Assembly (NCBI GenBank): GCA_024278855.1
Contig: JAJRSJ010000079.1
Span: 1-64,000, forward strand
Reading direction: 5' to 3'
DNA from: Alphaproteobacteria bacterium
GTDB taxonomy: Bacteria; Pseudomonadota; Alphaproteobacteria; Caulobacterales; Maricaulaceae
Length of the DNA stretch: 64,000 nucleotides
Of this stretch, positions 5,922 through 48,662 are shown piece by piece. The translations under genes and the position numbers were made by a program. The notes below the pieces were generated by a model. The model made no database searches. It worked only from the letters and a program-made list of their open reading frames with translations, and was not told the origin of the DNA. The stretch's first letter is position 1. The number at the start of each line of letters is the position of its first letter.

Positions 5922-6593
5922 ATGAAATACCGTAAAGAACTGGAACTGGCATCTTTCTTTCCTCTCCTTGGGGAGAGGCCACGTGAGCGAAGTGAGCTGT
6001 GGGTGAGGGGATACAATTTCTTGTTGTTCTTCTTGTCCGAATGTGGTTTGAACAATGTCCCCTCACCTAAATCCTCTCCCCAAGGAGAGGACTTAAAAAT
6101 GCACTCTCATCTCACACCCCGCTCATACCCGCGCAGGCGGGTATCCAGTTTGGAAAACAAAGGACACAACAATGCTGCGTACATTTTACGCTGGATTCCC
6201 ATTGTTATGGGAATGAGTGGGGTGTTATTGGTTAGTTGTTCAGGTCAAAAAACGTCAACAAATAAAACTTTAGTCTGCAAACATAAGCTTGCTGGGTACG
6301 AAACGATGCCTATCACAATGAGATTGTTTGATGAAATTTTGCCCGAGAAGGTTAGTAAAAAAGCTGAAGTGTCTTATGGAGCTTCCCCTAAGTCTGCCAC
6401 ATATTTTGAAATTGATGCACGTTACATGGTCACTTTGCCGAAAAATGACACCTTTCCTGAGTGCACAATTACAATTGATAGGTTGTCGGGATTTGCAAAG
6501 CAAACGTGTTTAGGAATATCTGAAATTTATCCAAATGACCCACGTTCAGAAACATTTGAATTATCCTGTAAGAATAAAATAGAGAAATTATAA
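5922..6593 (+). CDS. Lipoprotein-like ORF with palindromic repeats read in frame
   Basis: The frame opens at an ATG two bases after the cupin stop (MKYRKELELA) and stays open to 6593. It runs through a 130-base inverted repeat element (5961-6090) and a second palindrome (6126-6143), encoding PLLGERPRERSELWVRG and PSPKSSPQGED, peptides typical of translated repeats rather than protein domains. A plausible stand-alone gene begins at ATG 6207 with a hydrophobic stretch and lipobox LLVSC, giving about 128 residues with several cysteines. Either repeats inserted in a lipoprotein gene without breaking it, or the true start is near 6207. Base composition after 6230 is AT-rich. No function recognised. 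Confidence 0.5.
   Translation: MKYRKELELASFFPLLGERPRERSELWVRGYNFLLFFLSECGLNNVPSPKSSPQGEDLKMHSHLTPRSYPRRRVSSLENKGHNNAAYILRWIPIVMGMSGVLLVSCSGQKTSTNKTLVCKHKLAGYETMPITMRLFDEILPEKVSKKAEVSYGASPKSATYFEIDARYMVTLPKNDTFPECTITIDRLSGFAKQTCLGISEIYPNDPRSETFELSCKNKIEKL
5961..6090. repeat. Palindromic repeat element with 18-bp perfect inverted arms
   Basis: The outer arms at 5961-5978 and 6073-6090 are exact reverse complements (CCTCTCCTTGGGGAGAGG and its complement). A second inner pair, GGTGAGGGGA (6002-6011) and TCCCCTCACC (6058-6067), is also exact. The whole can fold into a long cruciform or hairpin. It looks like a dispersed REP/MITE-type element, here lying inside an open reading frame of the suf operon. 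Copy number elsewhere in the genome cannot be seen from this window. Confidence 0.85.
6126..6143. repeat. Short palindrome (TACCCGC-GCAG-GCGGGTA)
   Basis: A perfect 7-bp stem with a 4-base loop. It is followed by GTATCCAG (6141-6148), whose complement-like partner CTGGATTCCC lies at 6190-6199, allowing a second, larger hairpin. This matches a common bacterial dispersed repeat type with CCCGC-rich stems and CTGGAT ends. It sits directly after the larger palindromic element in the same frame. Confidence 0.7.
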
Positions 6594-6594
6594 A

Positions 6595-7341
6595 ATGCTA
6601 AAAATTAACAACATTACGGCCACGGTGAATGACGGCCAGCAAACCATATTGAACGGGCTTTCGCTCGAAGTTCCGGCCGGAGAGGTTCATGCGATTATGG
6701 GGCCTAACGGATCCGGGAAATCTACTTTGTCATATGTGCTCACGGGCAAGGACGGGTATGATGTGACCGGAGGCGCGGCCGAATATATGGGTCAGGATTT
6801 ACTCGAAATGCTGCCCGAGGCAAGAGCGGCGGCGGGAATGTTTTTGTCGTTTCAATACCCGCTTGAAATCCCCGGCGTGCCGACCATGCATTTCCTGCGC
6901 ACGGCGCTGAATGCCCAAAGAAAAGCACGCGGCGAAGAGCCGATGTCTGCGCCGGATTTCCTTAAAAAAGCCCGCAAGATTGCTAGCGATCTCAAGGTCA
7001 AACCGGACATGCTCAAACGCCCGCTTAATGTCGGATTTTCGGGCGGCGAGAAAAAGCGCATGGAAATTTTCCAGATGATGATGCTGGAGCCGAAATTTCT
7101 CATCATGGACGAAACGGATAGCGGGCTTGATGTGGACGCATTGCGTATTGTTGCGGACGGGGTTAACGCTTTGCGCAGCCCTGATAGAGGCATGTTGATC
7201 ATCACCCATTACCAGCGCCTGCTCGATTACATCGTGCCTGACCGCGTGCATGTGCTGTCAGCCGGAAAAATCGTCGCCAGCGGCGGGGCGGATTTTGCAA
7301 AACAACTTGAGAAAGAAGGCTATGACAAATATGCGGCTTGA
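6595..7341 (+). CDS. sufC: Fe-S assembly ATPase SufC
   Basis: A 248-residue ABC-type ATPase with Walker A GPNGSGKST (36-44), the ABC signature FSGGEKKR, Walker B FLIMDETDSGLD and a switch His in IITHYQR. It is the family's usual length. SufC dimerises with SufB and SufD and drives conformational change of the scaffold; it is cytosolic and not a transporter. The ATG follows the previous stop by one base, keeping operon coupling despite the inserted passenger block upstream. Confidence 0.97.
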   Translation: MLKINNITATVNDGQQTILNGLSLEVPAGEVHAIMGPNGSGKSTLSYVLTGKDGYDVTGGAAEYMGQDLLEMLPEARAAAGMFLSFQYPLEIPGVPTMHFLRTALNAQRKARGEEPMSAPDFLKKARKIASDLKVKPDMLKRPLNVGFSGGEKKRMEIFQMMMLEPKFLIMDETDSGLDVDALRIVADGVNALRSPDRGMLIITHYQRLLDYIVPDRVHVLSAGKIVASGGADFAKQLEKEGYDKYAA

Positions 7342-38367: not shown

Positions 38368-41300
38368 ATGAATACAAATTGGAAATTTTGGATAGACCGG
38401 GGCGGGACATTCACTGATATAGTGGCATGTGACCCGCGTGGGTGTATCCGCACTAAAAAACTGTTGTCTGAAAACCCTGAAAATTACCAAGATGCGGCGC
38501 TTGAGGGTATGCGGCAATTTTTGGATGTGCCTAAACATGCCCCGCTTCCCGGAGACAAAATCGCTAGCGTTAAAATGGGTACAACCGTGGCCACCAATGC
38601 TTTGCTAGAGCGGGCCGGGACACCAACCGCTTTGGCCATTACGGCGGGGTTGCGAGATGCGCTCGAAATTGGCTATCAGGCGCGGGCCGATATTTTTGCG
38701 CTTAACATCATAAAACCCGCCCCGCTTTATGATGCGCTGGTCGAGATAGACGAAAGGCTTGACGCCCAGGGCGGTGTGATTACCACACCCGATATGGAGC
38801 AAGCGCGTAAAGGTTTGCAAGCACTTTATGATGATGGCTACAGAGCTTTGGCGATTGTATTTCTGCATGCTTACCGCAATCCAGACCACGAAAAGCGGAT
38901 CGCAAAACTGGCGAAAAAAATAGGCTTTAGCCAGATTTCGACTAGCGCCGAGGCCAGTCCCTTGGTCAAGATGATAGCCCGCGGACGCACGGCGGTGGTG
39001 GATGCTTATCTGTCTCCAATACTTCGCGGTTATATAGACCGTGTGGCGGATGCTTTGGAGGGGGTGGGCGAATTATTGTTCATGCAGTCTTCTGGCGGGC
39101 TTGCGGATGCGAGCAATTTTTACGGGCGTAATGCCGTGCTGTCCGGGCCTGCGGGCGGGGTGGTCGGGGCGGTGCGCACGGCCAGTAGCGCCGGGTTTGA
39201 CAAAATAATTGGTTTTGATATGGGCGGGACATCTACGGATGTCTGCCATTATGCGGGCCGTTATGAGCGGTGCCAAGAGGCCGAAATTGCGGGCGTGCGT
39301 ATGCGCGCCCCTATGTTGGAGATCCACACAGTTGCGGCGGGCGGCGGCTCTATACTTGCATTTGACGGGAGCCGGTTTTTGGCAGGCCCGGCGTCTGCGG
39401 GGGCCAATCCGGGGCCGGCGGCATACAGGCGCGGCGGGCCGATCACTGTTACCGATATAAATGTTGCCCTTGGTAAATTACGGCCCGAGCATTTTCCTGC
39501 GATTTTCGGGCCAAAGCAAGATGAAGCTTTGGACATATGTGCGGCTCGCGACAGCTTTGCCAGTATAGCGGAAGAAACCGGCAAAAGCCTTGAAGAGACT
39601 TGCGAGGGCTTCCTGCAAATCGCGGTCGGGCATATGGCCCGCGCCATCAAGAAAATATCGGTCGAGCGCGGTTATGATCTGAAAGGCTATACTCTGGCCT
39701 GTTTTGGTGGCGCGGGCGGCCAACATGCTTGTCTGGTGGCAGAGCAGCTTGGAATAGAGCGGATTTTTATTCATCCACTGGCGGGCGTGTTATCGGCTTA
39801 CGGTATGGGTTTGGCAGATATATTGGTTCTGGAGCAAGCAAGTCTAAATCTACCAATTGCGCATATAGATGCGGCGTTTAAGACTGCAGACAGCTTGCGC
39901 ACTACCGGGCGCGATAAATTACTGTCCCAAAATCTTGCTGCAAGCGACATCAAATCCGTAAGCCGGGCCTATGTGCGCTACGGGGATTCTGATACGGCTT
40001 TGGAAATCATGCTGACGCCAAATCTGAAACAGGATTTTGAACAAGTCCATTTGTCCCGGTTCAGTTTTATCGACAAAGACGCCGATATTATCATCGAGTC
40101 CATAAGTGTGGAAAGCTCCGGCGGCGGCGAGCAGGTGCAAATAATAAACCTAGAAAACCATAAGACGGGCCAGGAAAACCCGGTGACATTTTACGCCAAA
40201 GGCGAGTGGCATATGGCCAAAGTTTATCACCGGAGTGGTTTGGAGGTGGGTAAAGCTGTATCAGGTCCGGCGATAATTCTGGATGCTGGCGGAACCAATA
40301 TAGTTGAACCGGGGTGGCAGGCGGAACTAACCGGGGATAATAATTTGATTATGAATTTTCCCCCGCCGCTTCTGCAACGTGCCGACACCTCCTCTTTGAA
40401 AGCCGGAAGAGGGAAAAACGAAAGTCAGAAAAAAGCAGGCGGGAAAAAAGATCCCGTCCGTTTAGAGATTTTCAATCAATTATTTATGGCGGTGGCTGAG
40501 CAAATGGGGGTGGTTCTGCAAAACACGGCCCGCTCCGTCAACATCAAGGAACGGTTGGATTTTTCCTGTGCCGTATTTGATGCAAGCGGTGGGTTGGTCG
40601 CCAACGCCCCGCACATGCCCGTGCATATTGGCTCTATGGACGCCAGTGTCAAAGCCTTGATGGATTCAGGTCTGAACATGTCTGCGGGTGACAGTTTCGT
40701 CCACAACAACCCCTATGCGGGCGGCACACATTTGCCGGATATAAATGTGATAACGCCGGTATTGGATGCGGGCGGCGACAGGCTATTGTTTTATGTAGCG
40801 TCCAGAGGACATCACGCCGACATTGGCGGGTTGGCACCGGGCAGCATGTCGCCGTTGGCTGTGAATATCCACGAGGAAGGTGTAGTGATTGATTGTATGG
40901 TATTGGTGAGCGGCGGCGTGTTTAGAGATGCTGATATTCGCGCCGTGCTTGGCTCTGGCCAATATCCGGCCCGTAATCCTGCGAATAATATCGCTGACCT
41001 CAAAGCCCAAATTGCCGCCAATTCCAAAGGCGCATCGGAGCTTTTGAAATTGTGCGAAAGCCACGGATATGAAACCGTAAGCGCCTATATGGACTATTGT
41101 CAGGACAACGGCGAGGACAGTGTGCGCCGGGCTATTTCGGCGCTAGGGGACGGAGAATTTGTCTACGAGATTGATCAGGGCAGCAAGATATGTGTGAAGA
41201 TCATGGTGGACAAAAAAGCGGGCAGCGCGGTGATTGATTTTGCGGGAACTGACCCCCAAAGAGATGATAATTTCAACGCGCCCGAAGCCGTCACCCATGC

Positions 41301-41979
41301 GGCGGTTCTGTATGTATTTAGATGTTTGGTCGGTACGGATATCCCCCTGAATACCGGGTGTATGCGCCCGCTTGATATACGTATACCGAAAGGCTGTCTA
41401 TTGTCCCCTAGCCACCCGGCGGCGATTGTTGCGGGCAATGTTGAGATTTCGCAAGCTGTTACCAATGCTTTGTTCGGAGCACTTGGGGTGCTTGGCTCTA
41501 GCCAGGGTACGATGAACAATCTCACCTTTGGCAATGATAAATACCAGTATTATGAAACCATATGTTCCGGCGCGCCCGCCGGCCCCGGCTTTGACGGAGC
41601 CTCGGCTATCCACACCCATATGACCAATTCTCATTTAACCGACCCGGAAGTGCTAGAGCTTCGCTGTCCGGTGCGCCTTAAAACCTTTGAGATTATGCGC
41701 GGTTCTGGCGGTAAGGGGAGGCACAATTCAGGCGACGGCGTGCGCCGGGCTTTAGAGTTTTTGGAACCCATGCAGTGCGCAATATTGTCCGGCAACCGGG
41801 TGATACCGTGTGCAGGCGTTAATGGCGGCGAGCCGGGACGGCTTGGCAATAACAAGATTATACGCAAGGGCGGTAGCGTTGACAAACTGGCAGGTTGCGA
41901 CAGCACCGAAGTCGGCCCCGGCGACATATTCCTACTGGAAACCCCGACTGGGGGCGGCTATGGTAAGCGTGAAAGTTGA
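38368..41979 (+). CDS. 5-oxoprolinase / hydantoinase A-B fusion protein
   Basis: About 1203 residues. The HyuA half has [28 protein letters not shown], and the actin-fold phosphate loop [12 protein letters not shown]. The HyuB half starts near residue 690: [42 protein letters not shown], then [14 protein letters not shown] and [12 protein letters not shown]. The fusion and length match ATP-dependent 5-oxoprolinase, which opens 5-oxoproline to glutamate; hydantoinase or acetone carboxylase-like activities are alternatives. First gene of a tight five-gene operon. Confidence 0.9.
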
Positions 41980-41986
41980 ACGGATT

Positions 41987-42766
41987 ATGGCCAGAGACAA
42001 GATAAAATTCACGGGCGCATTTGGGGACAGCCTTTCGGCCCGGCTTAACTGGCCGGACGATATGGACAAAAGCGATGTGCGGGCCTGGGTATTGTTTGCC
42101 CACGGGTTTTCTATTGGCAAGGATTTAAAACCGGTGCGGACGATTGCCAAGACTTTGGTCAGCGTCGGGTTTGGGATGATGCGGTTTGATTTTACCGGGC
42201 TTGGCGAAAGCGGCGGTAATTTCTCCGATACTAATTTCAGCTCCAATGTCAAAGACATATTGGGCGCCGCCGCTTATTTGCGGGAGCATAAAAAAGCTCC
42301 GGCAATTCTTATCGGCCACAGTTTTGGCGGCACGGCTGCCTTGATGGCGGCGCAGGATTTGCCGGAATGCAAGGCGGTCGCTACGATTGGCTCGCCGTTT
42401 GATACCCGCCATATCGTGCATCAATTTGCAGACCAACTTGAAGAAATAGAACGCGACGGCGAAGCGCAAGTTTTTCTGGCCGGGCGGCCTTTCGTGATCA
42501 AGGAACAATTTTTGGATGACATCAGAAGTCAGGACATGGGCAAAGCAATTGCCAATTTACGCCGCGCCCTGATGGTGTTTCATTCACCCCAGGACAAGGT
42601 CGTCGATATTGAAAACGCCAGCCATATTTATTCAAAAGCCCGTCACCCCACAAGTTTTGTCAGCTTGGACAAGGCGGACCATTTGCTGCTCCGCAACCCA
42701 AGAGACGCCGCCTATATAGCCAGAGTTCTGGCCGCATGGTCGCGGCGCTATATAGAGGTAGTATGA
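41987..42766 (+). CDS. Alpha/beta hydrolase of the hydrolase-OsmC family, without OsmC domain
   Basis: About 259 residues from ATG 41987; an in-frame ATG at 41960 overlaps the oxoprolinase end. KFTGAFGDSLSARLNWP, FAHGFSIGKDL, MRFDFTGLGESGGNFSDTNFSSNV and the nucleophile elbow IGHSFGGTAAL match the hydrolase half of proteins commonly fused to OsmC. Here the OsmC domain is absent and the protein ends with SRRYIEVV. His and Asp of the triad fall in DKADHLLL and HSPQDKVVDIE. The substrate is unknown; thioesters or esters are plausible. Its stop overlaps the next start (ATGA). Confidence 0.85.
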   Translation: MARDKIKFTGAFGDSLSARLNWPDDMDKSDVRAWVLFAHGFSIGKDLKPVRTIAKTLVSVGFGMMRFDFTGLGESGGNFSDTNFSSNVKDILGAAAYLREHKKAPAILIGHSFGGTAALMAAQDLPECKAVATIGSPFDTRHIVHQFADQLEEIERDGEAQVFLAGRPFVIKEQFLDDIRSQDMGKAIANLRRALMVFHSPQDKVVDIENASHIYSKARHPTSFVSLDKADHLLLRNPRDAAYIARVLAAWSRRYIEVV

Positions 42767-44196
42767 GCGATTTTAAAGACATGCTGAAGGCGGGTACCGA
42801 GGGGATCGCCATATTGGATGCGCAGCGATGTGCGCAGTTGGCCAAGGACGAAGATGTGCTGTTGGTGGACATCCGCGATGTGCGCGAACGCGACCGCGAC
42901 GGCTGTATAGCGGGGGCTTATCATATGCCGCGCGGTATGTTGGAATTTTGGATGCATCCCGGTAGTCCCTATTACAAATCCGTATTTGGAAAATACGCGA
43001 AATTTATTTTCATTTGCGCCAAGGGCTGGCGGGCCAGGATGGCGGCGGTTGCGGCCAAGCAATTGGGCTATAACGCCAGTGTCATGGACGGTGGATTTAG
43101 TGCTTTATTGGATTTGGGGCGTGCTACAGGCCTTGGTCTGGTGCAGACGGACGGGGATAAATTTTATACCCTGTCCGAAATAGAAGCCAAATTGCCGCAT
43201 ATATTAAAGCGGGAAAACATTGCCAGATATGAGGACGGCAAGGTTCTAATCGGTAATCGCAAGGACTATCCGTTTTCGAAAAATTTTGTAACTTGCGACA
43301 GCGTTGAAGAAGTGGCCGTGGCCATAGAGACTATGGTGACGCAAGGCGTAGGTCCGTGGGTGGCGGCGGTGCATGCTATGGCTATGCGGGCCGATCAGTT
43401 AAAGGGCGACAAGAATATTCTGGCCGGGTTAGAGCTTGCGAAAGACCGCCTCGTTCGGACACGCCCGACCAATACGCTGATCCGCTACCGCTTGGAAGAC
43501 GTGTTGAGATCTGCGCAGATTGCTCTGGATAAAGGTCGTGACCCGGCTGAGTTTATCTTAAAGCGCATAAAAACCATCATGGACCAGATGTATAAATTCT
43601 ATGGTCGCCGCGCCGGGTATGGGGCCAAGTTGATTGATGATGATGACGGGATTTTGACCATGTGTTTCGCCGAAACTTCATTCGTTCTGGCCATGATTAT
43701 GGCCAAAGACGCGGGCAAAAACATCACGGTTTATGTGCCTGAAACGAGGCCGTTCTTACAAGGTGCCCGCCTGACAGCACCGAGTTTGGTTGAGTGCGGC
43801 ATCAAGGTAAAACTGATCACTGACGGTATGGGCGCAGCCCTGATGGCGGAAGGGAAAATCCAGAAATACATGACGGCCGCAGACCTGATCACTCTGGACG
43901 GCCATGTGGTCAACAAGGTCGGAACCCTGCCAAATGCTATCGCCGCCCATGCCCACGGCATCCCGTATTTCGCCTTCGCCTGGGGATGCGATAAAAACAA
44001 ACCGGGCAGGGCTAGTGTTGAGGTCGAACAGCGCGATCCTGCGGATATCCGGAATATAGGAGGTGTCTCCACCACGCTTGAGACAATCGACGCCGCCTAT
44101 CCAGCCTTTGACATTACCCCGCCAAAATATGTGGCGGGCATTATAACAAGACACGGCGTTCTAAGCCCTTACACCCTAAACAACGGATTTGAATAA
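42763..44196 (+). CDS. Rhodanese domain fused to an MtnA/eIF2B-like sugar-1-phosphate isomerase domain
   Basis: A 477-residue fusion. Residues about 15-125 are a rhodanese: VLLVDIRDVRERDRDGCIAGAYHMP and the active loop ICAKGWRAR with Cys85, so sulfur transfer is possible. Residues about 180-477 are MtnA/aIF2B-like: GVGPWVAAVHAMAM, RPTN, ILTMCFAETS with Cys301 at the catalytic Cys position of MtnA (usual THCN), and ETRPFLQGARLTA. The segment corresponding to MtnA GADR-x4-NGD reads AADL-x4-DGH, so one acidic residue has become His. It probably isomerises methylthioribose-1-phosphate or a related 5-deoxysugar phosphate, with altered chemistry or specificity. Coupled to the phosphorylase gene by a one-base overlap. 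Confidence 0.8.
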   Translation: MSDFKDMLKAGTEGIAILDAQRCAQLAKDEDVLLVDIRDVRERDRDGCIAGAYHMPRGMLEFWMHPGSPYYKSVFGKYAKFIFICAKGWRARMAAVAAKQLGYNASVMDGGFSALLDLGRATGLGLVQTDGDKFYTLSEIEAKLPHILKRENIARYEDGKVLIGNRKDYPFSKNFVTCDSVEEVAVAIETMVTQGVGPWVAAVHAMAMRADQLKGDKNILAGLELAKDRLVRTRPTNTLIRYRLEDVLRSAQIALDKGRDPAEFILKRIKTIMDQMYKFYGRRAGYGAKLIDDDDGILTMCFAETSFVLAMIMAKDAGKNITVYVPETRPFLQGARLTAPSLVECGIKVKLITDGMGAALMAEGKIQKYMTAADLITLDGHVVNKVGTLPNAIAAHAHGIPYFAFAWGCDKNKPGRASVEVEQRDPADIRNIGGVSTTLETIDAAYPAFDITPPKYVAGIITRHGVLSPYTLNNGFE

Positions 44197-44954
44197 TGAG
44201 CGAAATTACGGCGTTAATTGGTGGCACGGGGATTTATGCCCCAGGAAACATAAAGGAGGGCAGGGTTGTTCGCCGCGAGACGGTGAGCACGCCTTACGGT
44301 GATGTTACGGTTGAGAGAACTGACGATTTGATATTCCTGAACCGCCATGCGCCCAATCATTCGGTGCCGCCCCACAAGGTCAATTACCGGGCCAATATCA
44401 AGGCGCTGCATATGTTGGGCGTCCGCCGGATTTGTGCGACTTTTGCGGTTGGTTCAATCAACGGGGATTTTGAACTGGCGGTTCCGGTTATCCTTTCGGA
44501 TTTCATTGACTATTCCTCTGGTCGCGAACATTCGTTTTTCGACAAGATCGAAGCTTCAAAAGGCCATGTGGATATGAGTGTGCCGTTCTGCCCTGTATTA
44601 TCAGGCGCGTTGGAGCGTGAGGCCAAAGCGCGAAATTTAAAAGTCCGGCGCGGTGGTGTTTATGCTTCGACCAATGGGCCGCGTTTTGAAAGCCCGGCTG
44701 AAATAAAAGCCTACCGCAAAATGGGCGCGGATGTTGTCGGCATGACTTTATGCCCGGAGCTGCCCCTCGCATTGGAGCTTGGCATGTCCTATGCTGGTTT
44801 GGCGTTTTCCATCAACTGGGGCGCAGGCATGACACCAAATATCGAGCTGGTTCACGAGGGTGTTGATATTATAAAAGACAAAATGCTGCATGTTATGATG
44901 GCGGCGTTGGCCAACACCAAGGACGCGGACTGCACACCTGCGAGCATATTATGA
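44196..44954 (+). CDS. 5'-methylthioadenosine/methylthioinosine-type nucleoside phosphorylase
   Basis: A 252-residue trimeric PNP/MTAP-family enzyme: ALIGGTGIY phosphate loop, LNRHAPNHSVPPHKVNYRAN, IDYSSGREHSFF, TNGPRFESPAEI and the ribose-binding MVGMT-like VVGMTLCPE. The base-recognition loop reads SINWGAG with Asn207, where human MTAP has Asp. Asn is found in the methylthioinosine phosphorylase PA3004 and in 6-oxopurine PNPs, hinting at inosine-type rather than adenine nucleosides. The product would be the sugar-1-phosphate used by the upstream isomerase. Overlaps both neighbours (1 and 4 bases). Confidence 0.85.
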   Translation: MSEITALIGGTGIYAPGNIKEGRVVRRETVSTPYGDVTVERTDDLIFLNRHAPNHSVPPHKVNYRANIKALHMLGVRRICATFAVGSINGDFELAVPVILSDFIDYSSGREHSFFDKIEASKGHVDMSVPFCPVLSGALEREAKARNLKVRRGGVYASTNGPRFESPAEIKAYRKMGADVVGMTLCPELPLALELGMSYAGLAFSINWGAGMTPNIELVHEGVDIIKDKMLHVMMAALANTKDADCTPASIL

Positions 44955-45730
44955 CCAAGTTTTCTTACCAAAATGAACTGGATGATTTCAAGGCTACCGC
45001 CCACTGGTTGGCCCTGCGCGGTTGGTCGGAAGCGGCGGGCGGTAATATGTCTATCAGGTTGGACGCTCCCGCTAAGCTACACGAAAATGACCATATCAAA
45101 TTGCCCATAGACGTGCCGTATCTGGCTGGCAAGGCGGTGTTGCTTACGGGCTCGGGGACGCGGGCGCGGGAAATCGGACTTGATCCTTTGCCCCATATTG
45201 GTCTGTATAAAATCAGTGATGACGGGCGCTATTATGGCTGGATTGCCGGCAATAAAACCCCGTCCATGGAATTACCGGCCCATTTCGCCATTCACAATAC
45301 TTTGGAGCAGCACCGCCCGGGCGACAAAGCCATTTTGCACACCCATCCGGTTAGCCTGATCGCTTTGTGCCATATGCCCTTATTTAATAACGCTAAAGCC
45401 ATCTCCGATAAAATCCTGTCCATGCAAAGCGAGGCGCGTTTAATTTTGCCCGAGGGCATCGGGTTTGTGAAGCACGCATTGCCGGGGTCTTTGGAGTTGG
45501 GCCTGAAGTCGGCGCTAGAATTAGAGCGCCATCATTTGGTTTTGTGGCAATATCACGGAATACTGGCCACTGGCGAAACCCTGGCGGGTGCGTTTGACAA
45601 GCTAGAAGTGTTTGAGAAAAGCGCACGGGTTTATTGGCAATTACGGGCGGCAGGCCTTGATCCGTGCGGTATTAGCGAGGCCGAGATCAAGCACACACTC
45701 AAAGCTTTCGGGCGGTTGGAGCGATATTAA
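44951..45730 (+). CDS. Class II aldolase, rhamnulose-1-phosphate aldolase (RhaD)-like
   Basis: A 259-residue zinc aldolase. Phosphate loop AAGGNMS (28-34), catalytic acid Glu107 in SMELPAH, zinc ligands His130 and His132 (LHTHP) and His202 (QYHG). The spacing Glu-His-His-His (107/130/132/202) closely follows E. coli RhaD (117/141/143/212), and EGIGFVKHALPG...HHLVLWQYHGILATG is RhaD-like rather than MtnB-like. After an MtnP/MtnA pair, it should cleave a 5-deoxy- or 5-methylthio-ribulose-1-phosphate to DHAP and an aldehyde, as in known DHAP shunts (inference). Last gene of the operon; stop overlaps the convergent permease stop. Confidence 0.85.
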   Translation: MTKFSYQNELDDFKATAHWLALRGWSEAAGGNMSIRLDAPAKLHENDHIKLPIDVPYLAGKAVLLTGSGTRAREIGLDPLPHIGLYKISDDGRYYGWIAGNKTPSMELPAHFAIHNTLEQHRPGDKAILHTHPVSLIALCHMPLFNNAKAISDKILSMQSEARLILPEGIGFVKHALPGSLELGLKSALELERHHLVLWQYHGILATGETLAGAFDKLEVFEKSARVYWQLRAAGLDPCGISEAEIKHTLKAFGRLERY

Positions 45731-47031
45731 ATATACCTGCGAGGTTCGCGCCAATGGGCGTAAGCCAATAATACCGCCGTATAAATGGCCAATGTAATCC
45801 AACCTTTATTGCCGACAAAACCCCAGGACGCATATATACCGTAGCCGTAAATAACCACCGCCAATACTGGTAAACCCCGTGTGGCCCAGACGGGGAGTTT
45901 GAACGGGGCATCTCTATATGCCTCTGGTCTTTTGCTTACCAAACCCCACAGGGCAAATACCGGGAACAGGCCGAATATCGCCCCGACCGCATTGCCCAGA
46001 ATTGCTACATAGCTGAGGCTCATACCCGTTAAGATCGGGACTATGCCAACAACAAAAAATAATGTCAGAAATATCCACGGCGTCCCAAAACGGTTTTCGG
46101 CGGCTAGGTTTTTAGGGAGCCAGCCGTCCTTCGTGGCCATGGATAGCCCGCGTGTGCTCCAGGCAAATATTGCATTTAGCGATGTGACCAGTGACAGCAT
46201 CACCCCGCCCGCGATAAAGGCAATATAAACCCCCGGCGGGAAGATAACCTTGGCGGTAGCCGCTAGGTTCTTACCCTGCACATCGTCTAGCGGCAGCACA
46301 CCCGTAGCCACAACGGCGATACCGATATAGAGCAACGTCACTACGGCCAAGGATATGCCCATGACCAACGGAATTGTGTGGCCGGGGTTTTTCATCTCGT
46401 CGCCAAATTCGCTGATGAATTCCGATCCGATTAAACTTAGCCGGAGCAAGAACGCGGCGGCAAAAAACCCGCCAATGCCGCTTGGGAATATATTTTCCGG
46501 TTTGGTGTATTGGCGCATATCGTCCACATGCCCAAAGCCTGCAAATATATAAATAAGCAAAGAGGCAATCAATACCACGACCATCAGGCTTTGAAATCGG
46601 GCCGCCGTTTTTATCCCGAGCAGATTTGCGACAAAACAAGCCGTCATAATCAATGCGGCGACCAACATCATGTTAATTTCGGGGATTAACGCTTGGGCAT
46701 ACTCGGCAAACCCGATGGCAAAACTGGCCAATATTATTTGCCCGGCAATCAGCAAACCCAGATCAACGACAGCCGTTTTTGGGCCAAGCAAATCGCGCAC
46801 ATAAGTATAATTGCCGCCGCGTGCAGGCACAGCGGAACCAAGCGCCGCAATACACAAGGTCGGAATAGCCACGATAAACAGCGCCAGAACAAACGCCCAC
46901 GGCACGCCGTGGCCAGTCATGCTAATGCTGATTCCGGTGAGTACTACCACGCCAGTACCGATTATTTGCCCCAAGGAAATACTGAGAAGGTCCCAAAAGC
47001 CGAGTTGTTTTTTAGTGGGTTTTTCATGCAT
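45727..47031 (-). CDS. APC family amino acid/polyamine permease
   Basis: A 434-residue inner-membrane transporter with about 12 hydrophobic segments. The first helix carries the APC substrate motif SLGQIIGTGVVVLTGI, and helix 6-like region FAAAFLLRLSLIGSEFISEFGDEMKNPGHTIP is typical. Substrate not predictable. Its Shine-Dalgarno (GGAAGGAAAG on the minus strand) is supplied by one arm of the inverted-repeat element just upstream. It follows the adenosine deaminase on the same strand. Confidence 0.9.
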   Translation of the reverse strand: MHEKPTKKQLGFWDLLSISLGQIIGTGVVVLTGISISMTGHGVPWAFVLALFIVAIPTLCIAALGSAVPARGGNYTYVRDLLGPKTAVVDLGLLIAGQIILASFAIGFAEYAQALIPEINMMLVAALIMTACFVANLLGIKTAARFQSLMVVVLIASLLIYIFAGFGHVDDMRQYTKPENIFPSGIGGFFAAAFLLRLSLIGSEFISEFGDEMKNPGHTIPLVMGISLAVVTLLYIGIAVVATGVLPLDDVQGKNLAATAKVIFPPGVYIAFIAGGVMLSLVTSLNAIFAWSTRGLSMATKDGWLPKNLAAENRFGTPWIFLTLFFVVGIVPILTGMSLSYVAILGNAVGAIFGLFPVFALWGLVSKRPEAYRDAPFKLPVWATRGLPVLAVVIYGYGIYASWGFVGNKGWITLAIYTAVLLAYAHWREPRRYI

Positions 47032-47252: not shown

Positions 47253-48662
47253 TTAAAACCTGCTTTCAAACGCAGCATATCTCTCGTCCAGTTTTTTAAT
47301 CAGCCGGGCTTTGGTTTGCTCGTCTACGAAAGCATAGCGCAGGGCGTTATAGCTCATGTCTTTTAGCTCGGCGTAGGAGAAGCCGTGTTCCCTAACACCG
47401 CGCACATATTCATGGGTCAAATCAATGCGGGCCACACCTTCATCGTCCGTGGACAAAGATAGGGGTACACCCGCCGCTTGGTATATTTTCAAAGGATGTT
47501 GATCGCCTGTGATGCCGAGGATGGCGTCTGAGGAGGTCAAATTGATCTCGACCAGGATTTTGTTGTCGGCCATGTATTTAAGCAAGTCTTTATAGCCTGC
47601 CTCGAAAATAATATCCGAGCCGTGGCCAATGCGTTTGGCGCGGGCAATGTGTACGGCTTGGGTGATATGGTCGCGCAGCTCGTCTGGATGCACGAGACCC
47701 AGCCATAGTTCGCCGGCGTGTAGGGAGATATTGCGCGCACCCAGGGTTTCATAAAGATAGCCCAATTGTTCCATATGGTCGTCATAATCGCGCAGGGCAA
47801 TGAAATCATCTTCGGGAGCGACCAGGTTTGTGCCGACAAAACGCTCGTCCTGAGCCATCAACTCCCAACCAAATATAGTGTGGGCATAGACGGCGGCCAG
47901 GGGCAGGGTACGCACGGGTTGGTTTTGGAAACGAACCTCAACATCACAACCCGGTTTAGCAGTGTCTGTTCCGCACCCCAAAAGCTCGTCTTTTCGCGCC
48001 ATAGCGGTGTCAATATCGCGCTTTGCACGGGCAACAAGATCGGGCAGTGCCGCGCCAAATTTCCCGTTCATCAGGGTTTCGTAATCTTTGGCGGCGTCTC
48101 CCGTCATGGGTGCATTTGCCACCATGGGCAATATGGTCTCGAACAATTCCATCGTGTGCATCAGTTCAAGATATAGTATATTTTGCTCTCCGGCCAGATT
48201 GGCGGTCTCGGCTACCATGTCCCCGAACCGCGACGGCAAGGCGGCCATAGAGCCAAAGGTTCTGAAAAACTGGTCATGCCCAGACCACCCGGCATGGGGG
48301 ACGAAATCCCGAAGCGAAAAACGTTCGATCAAATCATTGCGCAAATCCTGATTACCCGTAAGCGCCGTCTTGACATCCGGCATATTGCCGCAACCATTTT
48401 CGCCGGGAAACCGGATCGATAAATTTGGCCTGTCCAGACACATGCCGTCGACTTCCGCCCATTTGATCCAGCTTTCCGCATAGACGGCCCCGAACAAATG
48501 ATTGTGCAAATCTCCGCCCTTGGGCATGTCTTGCAAGAAATCCCGAAGCTCTATCTCGCTGTTTTTGATGCTGTCAAATTTTGCGGATACACCCGTCGGC
48601 GCGATGTTTTGCGTGCAAGCCGCAAATAGTGCAGCGATCGCAATTGTCATAATTTTTTTCAC
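47253..48662 (-). CDS. Secreted lipoprotein adenosine deaminase
   Basis: About 469 residues from GTG 48662, which has GGAGA at correct distance and yields a clean lipoprotein signal (VKKIMTIAIAALFAAC, Cys16). Zinc and catalytic motifs of the adenosine/AMP deaminase superfamily: GDLHNHLFGA, SLHAGELWLG with the catalytic Glu, RIGHGSDI and LSTDDEGV. The long N-terminal part and export resemble ADGF/CECR1-type extracellular deaminases. It would convert periplasmic adenosine-type nucleosides to inosines. Longer in-frame starts would add an unlikely 28 residues. Confidence 0.88.
   Translation of the reverse strand: MKKIMTIAIAALFAACTQNIAPTGVSAKFDSIKNSEIELRDFLQDMPKGGDLHNHLFGAVYAESWIKWAEVDGMCLDRPNLSIRFPGENGCGNMPDVKTALTGNQDLRNDLIERFSLRDFVPHAGWSGHDQFFRTFGSMAALPSRFGDMVAETANLAGEQNILYLELMHTMELFETILPMVANAPMTGDAAKDYETLMNGKFGAALPDLVARAKRDIDTAMARKDELLGCGTDTAKPGCDVEVRFQNQPVRTLPLAAVYAHTIFGWELMAQDERFVGTNLVAPEDDFIALRDYDDHMEQLGYLYETLGARNISLHAGELWLGLVHPDELRDHITQAVHIARAKRIGHGSDIIFEAGYKDLLKYMADNKILVEINLTSSDAILGITGDQHPLKIYQAAGVPLSLSTDDEGVARIDLTHEYVRGVREHGFSYAELKDMSYNALRYAFVDEQTKARLIKKLDERYAAFESRF

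Follow-up and report, generated by a model that had tools for sequence, protein, structure and literature searches.

5'-Methylthioadenosine (MTA) and 5'-deoxyadenosine, the waste products of S-adenosylmethionine, are produced by almost every cell and pass into the environment. The published dihydroxyacetone phosphate (DHAP) shunts use MtnP or a nucleosidase plus a kinase (PMC10986504, PMC5893883, PMC6079011). In R. rubrum, R. palustris and E. coli ATCC 25922, MtnP or Pfs plus MtnK is combined with MtnA and the class II aldolase Ald2 (PMC10986504, PMC5893883), and the E. coli ATCC 25922 operon also contains a transporter gene. For 5-deoxyribose disposal, drdK-drdI-drdA joins a kinase and an isomerase outside the canonical MtnA clade to a clustered class II aldolase (PMC6079011). 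P. aeruginosa deaminates MTA before phosphorolysis (MTA deaminase, methylthioinosine phosphorylase (MTIP) and MtnA), and the MtiP/deaminase/MJ0454 proposal for Methanocaldococcus jannaschii, as summarised in PMC6302742, includes a deaminase, an inosine-accepting phosphorylase and a promiscuous isomerase for both MTA and 5'-deoxyadenosine. Herein, we describe a phosphorylase-isomerase-aldolase locus in the first 64,000 nucleotides (the window) of contig JAJRSJ010000079.1, from a marine alphaproteobacterium of the Maricaulaceae. The source genome (2.72 Mb) is rated complete, and its nearest named relatives are Robiginitomaculum metagenome-assembled genomes (MAGs).

We consider it likely that the core of this locus is a DHAP shunt that begins with deamination, takes exogenous 5'-methylthio- or 5'-deoxynucleosides as substrates and employs a RhaD-type aldolase. 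An earlier note on this DNA had already read the phosphorylase, the MtnA-like isomerase and the class II aldolase as a DHAP-shunt route, and both the families and the conserved neighbourhood support it. The basis is the family assignments, the kept catalytic residues, the separate isomerase clade, the conserved neighbourhood and the absence of competing routes. Families, residues and context also suggest the substrates, the order of the steps, the direction of transport and the cleavage products. An exported lipoprotein deaminase would convert MTA or 5'-deoxyadenosine to the inosine form, which an APC-family permease would import. The phosphorylase would then release hypoxanthine and 5-methylthio- or 5-deoxyribose-1-phosphate, the isomerase would turn this ribose-1-phosphate into the ribulose-1-phosphate form, and the aldolase, with a predicted stereochemistry discussed below, would cleave the 5-substituted ribulose-1-phosphate to DHAP and methylthioacetaldehyde or acetaldehyde.

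The logic of phosphorylase (or nucleosidase and kinase), isomerase and class II aldolase is that of the known DHAP shunts, and the permease has a counterpart in the transporter gene of E. coli ATCC 25922. However, an inosine-type phosphorylase and an exported deaminase stand here in place of MtnP or the nucleosidase and kinase, the aldolase is of the RhaD rather than the Ald2/FucA type, and the isomerase belongs to another clade. Unlike drdK-drdI-drdA, the locus has no kinase but a phosphorylase, a deaminase, an APC permease and a RhaD-type aldolase. The P. aeruginosa route differs in its canonical isomerase, as placed in our tree, whereas here the deaminase is an exported lipoprotein resembling adenosine deaminase (ADA) and an aldolase follows. 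The M. jannaschii route is archaeal, with another isomerase and aldolase, and PMC6302742 describes no clustered exported deaminase for it. The kind of pathway is probably known, and the arrangement of its genes new. If the proposal is true, bacteria have a deaminate-first means of using MTA and 5'-deoxyadenosine as a carbon source, and a RhaD-type enzyme joins the aldolases recruited for the DHAP shunt.

The best curated models for the phosphorylase were methylthioinosine and methylthioadenosine phosphorylases, all below their cut-offs; the top-scoring one, PRK09136 (S-methyl-5'-thioinosine phosphorylase), gave 195.7 bits against a cut-off of 223. In the alignment, the base-site Asn was common to the operon phosphorylase, P. 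aeruginosa MTIP (3ozb fragment) and the phosphorylase of the genome's deo cluster, and archaeal MTAP has Asp. The operon phosphorylases carry Leu or Phe where the deo-cluster enzyme has a His, which we take to be the 5'-OH-binding residue of purine nucleoside phosphorylase (PNP). A base-site Asn without this His is the pattern of an MTIP-like enzyme. A PNP-like 5'-pocket His suggested by the single sequence was rejected: its position varies among relatives, and the true equivalent is the Leu/Phe. Since the only other PNP_UDP_1 protein of the genome is the deo-cluster enzyme, the operon phosphorylase is, as judged from family membership, its only MTAP/MTAN-type enzyme and the sole candidate in this superfamily for the disposal of MTA or 5'-deoxyadenosine. 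The operon-type phosphorylase was found in 14/14 genomes of the genus, none of which had a second match; most other family genomes have only an MtnP-like protein, 33-40% identical to it.

These findings bear on ordinary inosine catabolism, in which ribose-1-phosphate would pass through ribulose-1-phosphate to DHAP and glycolaldehyde. The exported ADA-like enzyme next door, the inosine-type base residue of the phosphorylase and the weak similarity of the aldolase to the ribulose-1-phosphate aldolase model NF053831 would all suit such a route. However, ordinary nucleosides have a route of their own in the source genome, through DeoB and a deo cluster that includes a separate phosphorylase; the 5'-OH-binding His is replaced in the operon phosphorylases, and the genome yielded no further member of the phosphorylase superfamily that would act on MTA or 5'-deoxyadenosine. 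We therefore regard inosine catabolism as unlikely.

The isomerase is not a canonical MtnA. It scored 178.5 bits with TIGR00512 (cut-off, 279); CFAE replaces the CNAG motif and is followed by a seven-residue deletion, and QGVGP replaces RGAP. The catalytic Cys and Asp, whose positions we assume to be those of B. subtilis MtnA, are invariant across the clade. In a 33-row maximum-likelihood tree, the isomerase fell within a 14-member clade (support, 100/100) apart from canonical MtnA, and the second MtnA of the source genome (contig C36) fell among the canonical sequences. The long branches of a genome designated G258 (G and L numbers are our handles for genomes and loci) and of a spirochaete leave their exact position uncertain. 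The clade members of Acetoanaerobium and Lactobacillus each belong to a cluster of three genes, the other two coding for a methylthioribose-kinase-like protein and a FucA-like class II aldolase; in Fusobacterium, the member adjoins a kinase gene, and a class II aldolase gene lies at a distance of about 4 kb. These kinase-isomerase-aldolase clusters match those known from the literature for drdK-drdI-drdA (PMC6079011) and the DHAP shunt (PMC10986504); the likeness to B. thuringiensis DrdI is one of cluster content. The isomerase locus of G258 also encodes a FucA-type class II aldolase and a phosphorylase that is not of the operon type; high GC made the open reading frames (ORFs) hard to read there, and only the isomerase, aldolase and phosphorylase were used. 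If the proposal holds, C[FY]x[ED] with the shortened loop would be a signature for an MtnA-like clade that is annotated as methionine-salvage isomerase.

No acireductone dioxygenase match above the cut-off was found in 20 genomes, which makes a continuation of oxygen-dependent methionine salvage beyond the isomerase improbable. As a separate observation, the canonical MtnA genes (L054:5688-7158, L024-L029) adjoin a small cupin-like ORF, in many cases with an SDR gene as well, and neither MtnB nor an acireductone dioxygenase was seen nearby.

The isomerase clade was present in 14/137 family genomes, namely 10/14 in the genus (source included) and four in a sister genus with the working name g18. 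The clade is rare in wider samples: at E <= 1e-60, the class sample of 385 genomes contained one further case and the phylum sample of 398 none. In both genera, the isomerase, phosphorylase, permease and deaminase-like lipoprotein genes are kept together, with the exceptions of G112, in which the phosphorylase is on a separate contig, and G117, in which the lipoprotein occupies a separate locus beside the oxoprolinase. The permease adjoins the core in both genera and in the gammaproteobacterial MAG L039, which has a partial core of isomerase, permease and lipoprotein. The permease and lipoprotein genes lie outside the interval of the earlier note, yet they are conserved with the core. A neighbourhood limited to one genome would have spoken against that note; parts of the order recur in 14 genomes, and the order is not due to chance. 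The stable core consists of the isomerase and phosphorylase, usually with the aldolase, plus the convergent permease and the exported ADA-like enzyme.

The ADA-like lipoprotein has LHNH, HAGE, IGHG and STDD motifs and a lipobox, which is N-terminal in the relatives. In G117 (L052:11609-14593), genes for an exported TRZ/ATZ-family deaminase and a tryptophanase-family protein are arranged divergently to the rhodanese-isomerase gene; a P. aeruginosa plasmid similarly has a TRZ/ATZ hydrolase beside MtnA. The models for this family include 5'-deoxyadenosine deaminase. Substitution of this deaminase for the lipoprotein in G117 was ruled out, as the lipoprotein is still there beside the oxoprolinase. 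Near relatives of the TRZ/ATZ deaminase in G106, G113 and G116 are on contigs other than that of the cluster.

Comparable clusters were found further afield. A Polaromonas plasmid encodes a nucleoside deaminase and a FucA/Ald2-type aldolase together with a protein annotated as S-methyl-5'-thioinosine phosphorylase, which shares 41% identity with the operon phosphorylase over 194 residues. Genes for an ABC transporter and for an isomerase like that of the window (38-52% identical to it in two pieces, split over two ORFs) lie in divergent orientation to these. The Polaromonas aldolase was found by tblastn in an unannotated gap, and its reading frame is interrupted. Both it and the isomerase look interrupted (L137:3358-4022, 5947-6992), which may reflect decay or sequencing error. 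The spirochaete has a deaminase-isomerase-phosphorylase gene run. The recurrence of these functions with unrelated deaminases, aldolases and transporters favours deamination, phosphorolysis, isomerisation and aldol cleavage as the pathway. A broader proposal is that of a third entry to the DHAP shunt: exogenous 5'-modified adenosines would be deaminated extracellularly, undergo phosphorolysis as inosine analogues and pass through an isomerase of this separate MtnA-like clade and an aldolase recruited from the RhaD type. Such an entry would have arisen independently, from different parts, in Robiginitomaculum relatives, on the Polaromonas plasmid and perhaps in spirochaetes. The balance of evidence on this proposal seems to us even.

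The aldolase is a class II enzyme clustered with the phosphorylase and isomerase, as in DHAP shunts, and is of the RhaD rather than the Ald2/FucA type. RhaD models were its best matches (PRK03634, 205.4 against a cut-off of 170; TIGR02624, 141.5 against 401). The RhaD zinc ligands and glutamates are kept, and Asn29 is changed to Ala in 7/7 operon members compared.

Several points weigh against the proposed shunt. The known DHAP-shunt aldolases are FucA/Ald2-like. E. coli RhaD gives the (3R,4S) product, and a ketose derived from ribose needs (3R,4R); a changed stereopreference would therefore be needed, since E. coli RhaD makes the other C4 stereoisomer. In the genus, the RhaD-type gene forms part of the cluster; the four isomerase-bearing g18 genomes have the isomerase and phosphorylase without RhaD. 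Conversely, six other g18 genomes (G120, G121, G122, G124, G125 and G128) have RhaD without this isomerase or phosphorylase, and G109 and G110 have the phosphorylase, RhaD and deaminase with only a canonical MtnA as isomerase. Lastly, the family of the permease is that of amino-acid permeases. MtrA (YfnA) is presumably also an APC-family protein. It imports methylthioribose in B. subtilis (PMC5743806). As a side observation, the RhaD orthologues of the six g18 genomes (L108-L113) stand alone in varied contexts.

The permease type would fit a larger, amino-acid-bearing 5' substituent, such as that of S-inosylhomocysteine formed from S-adenosylhomocysteine, with uptake by an amino-acid-type permease and later cleavage by a pyridoxal phosphate (PLP)-dependent lyase. 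A methionine-gamma-lyase-family gene by the isomerase in L039 and the tryptophanase-family gene near the cluster in G117 could supply such a lyase, and the shortened loop after the catalytic Cys of the isomerase may widen its pocket. However, the core has no consistently associated PLP lyase, and the same shortened loop occurs in Acetoanaerobium, Fusobacterium and Lactobacillus, in kinase-type clusters that are expected to act on small 5-deoxypentoses. We consider this substrate very unlikely.

The earlier note had also taken all five genes of the operon, from the oxoprolinase to the aldolase, as one functional unit that may act jointly on a sulfur-containing aldehyde, a thiol or a glutathione conjugate. 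Its positions and spacing were reproduced (a 7-base gap, then overlaps of 4, 1 and 4 bases), and this tight spacing, the position of the oxoprolinase just upstream in most genus members and the intact rhodanese catalytic loop (CAKGWR in the alignment) would agree with a single unit. The distribution of the genes speaks against both claims. The oxoprolinase has HyuA_N, HyuA and HyuB domains joined in one chain (Pfam), as expected of the 5-oxoprolinase/N-methylhydantoinase family, and an orthologue (about 50% identity, usually in single copy) occurs in 87/136 family genomes, mostly without the shunt. It is on a different contig from the isomerase in G117, G118, G123, G127 and G135. Given that it is common without the shunt and unlinked in these five genomes, the oxoprolinase was ruled out as a pathway step and is probably an unrelated neighbour, although it is likely to be co-transcribed with the operon, given how closely the genes are spaced in most members of the genus. 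In G117, the deaminase-like lipoprotein gene comes immediately after the oxoprolinase gene, an arrangement that would fit an insertion of the phosphorylase, isomerase and aldolase genes between this pair in other members of the genus. The case cautions against taking operon neighbours for pathway steps.

The hydrolase and rhodanese are likewise dispensable in relatives that bear the core. The hydrolase has gone from the locus in L033, L034, L036, L040, L047 and L052, and the rhodanese domain is missing from the isomerases of L038, L039, L040, L047 and g18; both are optional add-ons that vary between relatives. The hydrolase had been labelled as OsmC-family; Pfam found no OsmC domain in it, and it presumably resembles the hydrolase half of hydrolase-OsmC fusions. 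Stand-alone rhodanese relatives (L042-L045) showed no context in common with the pathway, and our literature search found no paper joining methylthioribose-1-phosphate isomerase and rhodanese. Joint action of all five gene products is thus most improbable.

That the aldolase is a rhamnulose-1-phosphate aldolase in an incidental gene order, which the earlier note had named as a refutation, is almost certainly wrong: it exceeds the curated cut-off of the RhaD model PRK03634, but its TIGR02624 score is far under the cut-off, the Asn29 of RhaD is Ala, and the rhamnose isomerase RhaA was found in 0/14 genus genomes.

Table 1. Features of the locus, in positions of the window
Feature	Position	Strand	Basis or remark
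5-Oxoprolinase/N-methylhydantoinase-family fusion (Hydant_A_N + HyuA + HyuB, 1203 aa)	38368-41979	+	Pfam, PDB match
Alpha/beta hydrolase (Hydrolase_4)	41987-42766	+	Pfam
Rhodanese domain, N-terminal part of isomerase fusion	42763-43152	+	Pfam, alignment
MtnA-like isomerase domain (IF-2B/MtnA family), predicted 5-methylthio-/5-deoxyribose-1-phosphate isomerase	43168-44196	+	
Rhodanese + IF-2B/MtnA fusion ORF	42763-44196	+	
MTIP-like nucleoside phosphorylase (PNP_UDP_1), predicted to cleave methylthioinosine/5'-deoxyinosine	44196-44954	+	
RhaD-type class II aldolase, predicted to cleave 5-substituted ribulose-1-phosphate to DHAP + aldehyde	44951-45730	+	
APC-family permease, predicted nucleoside importer	45727-47031	-	Convergent with operon, overlaps aldolase stop
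Adenosine-deaminase-like lipoprotein, predicted extracytoplasmic deaminase	47253 to ~48662	-	Start probably near 48662; longest ORF reaches 48746

Some relatives have additional genes at the locus. In two loci, an ORF that by eye resembles a PIN-domain (VapC-like) protein separates the isomerase gene from the phosphorylase gene (L033:11730-12143, L034:5728-6171). In G111 (L038:7426-9138), an AsnC/Lrp-type regulator, a small ORF and an ORF that looks PhzF-like by eye separate the oxoprolinase from the hydrolase. The methionine-gamma-lyase-family gene of L039 (11123-12346) directly follows the isomerase, where other genomes have the phosphorylase and aldolase.

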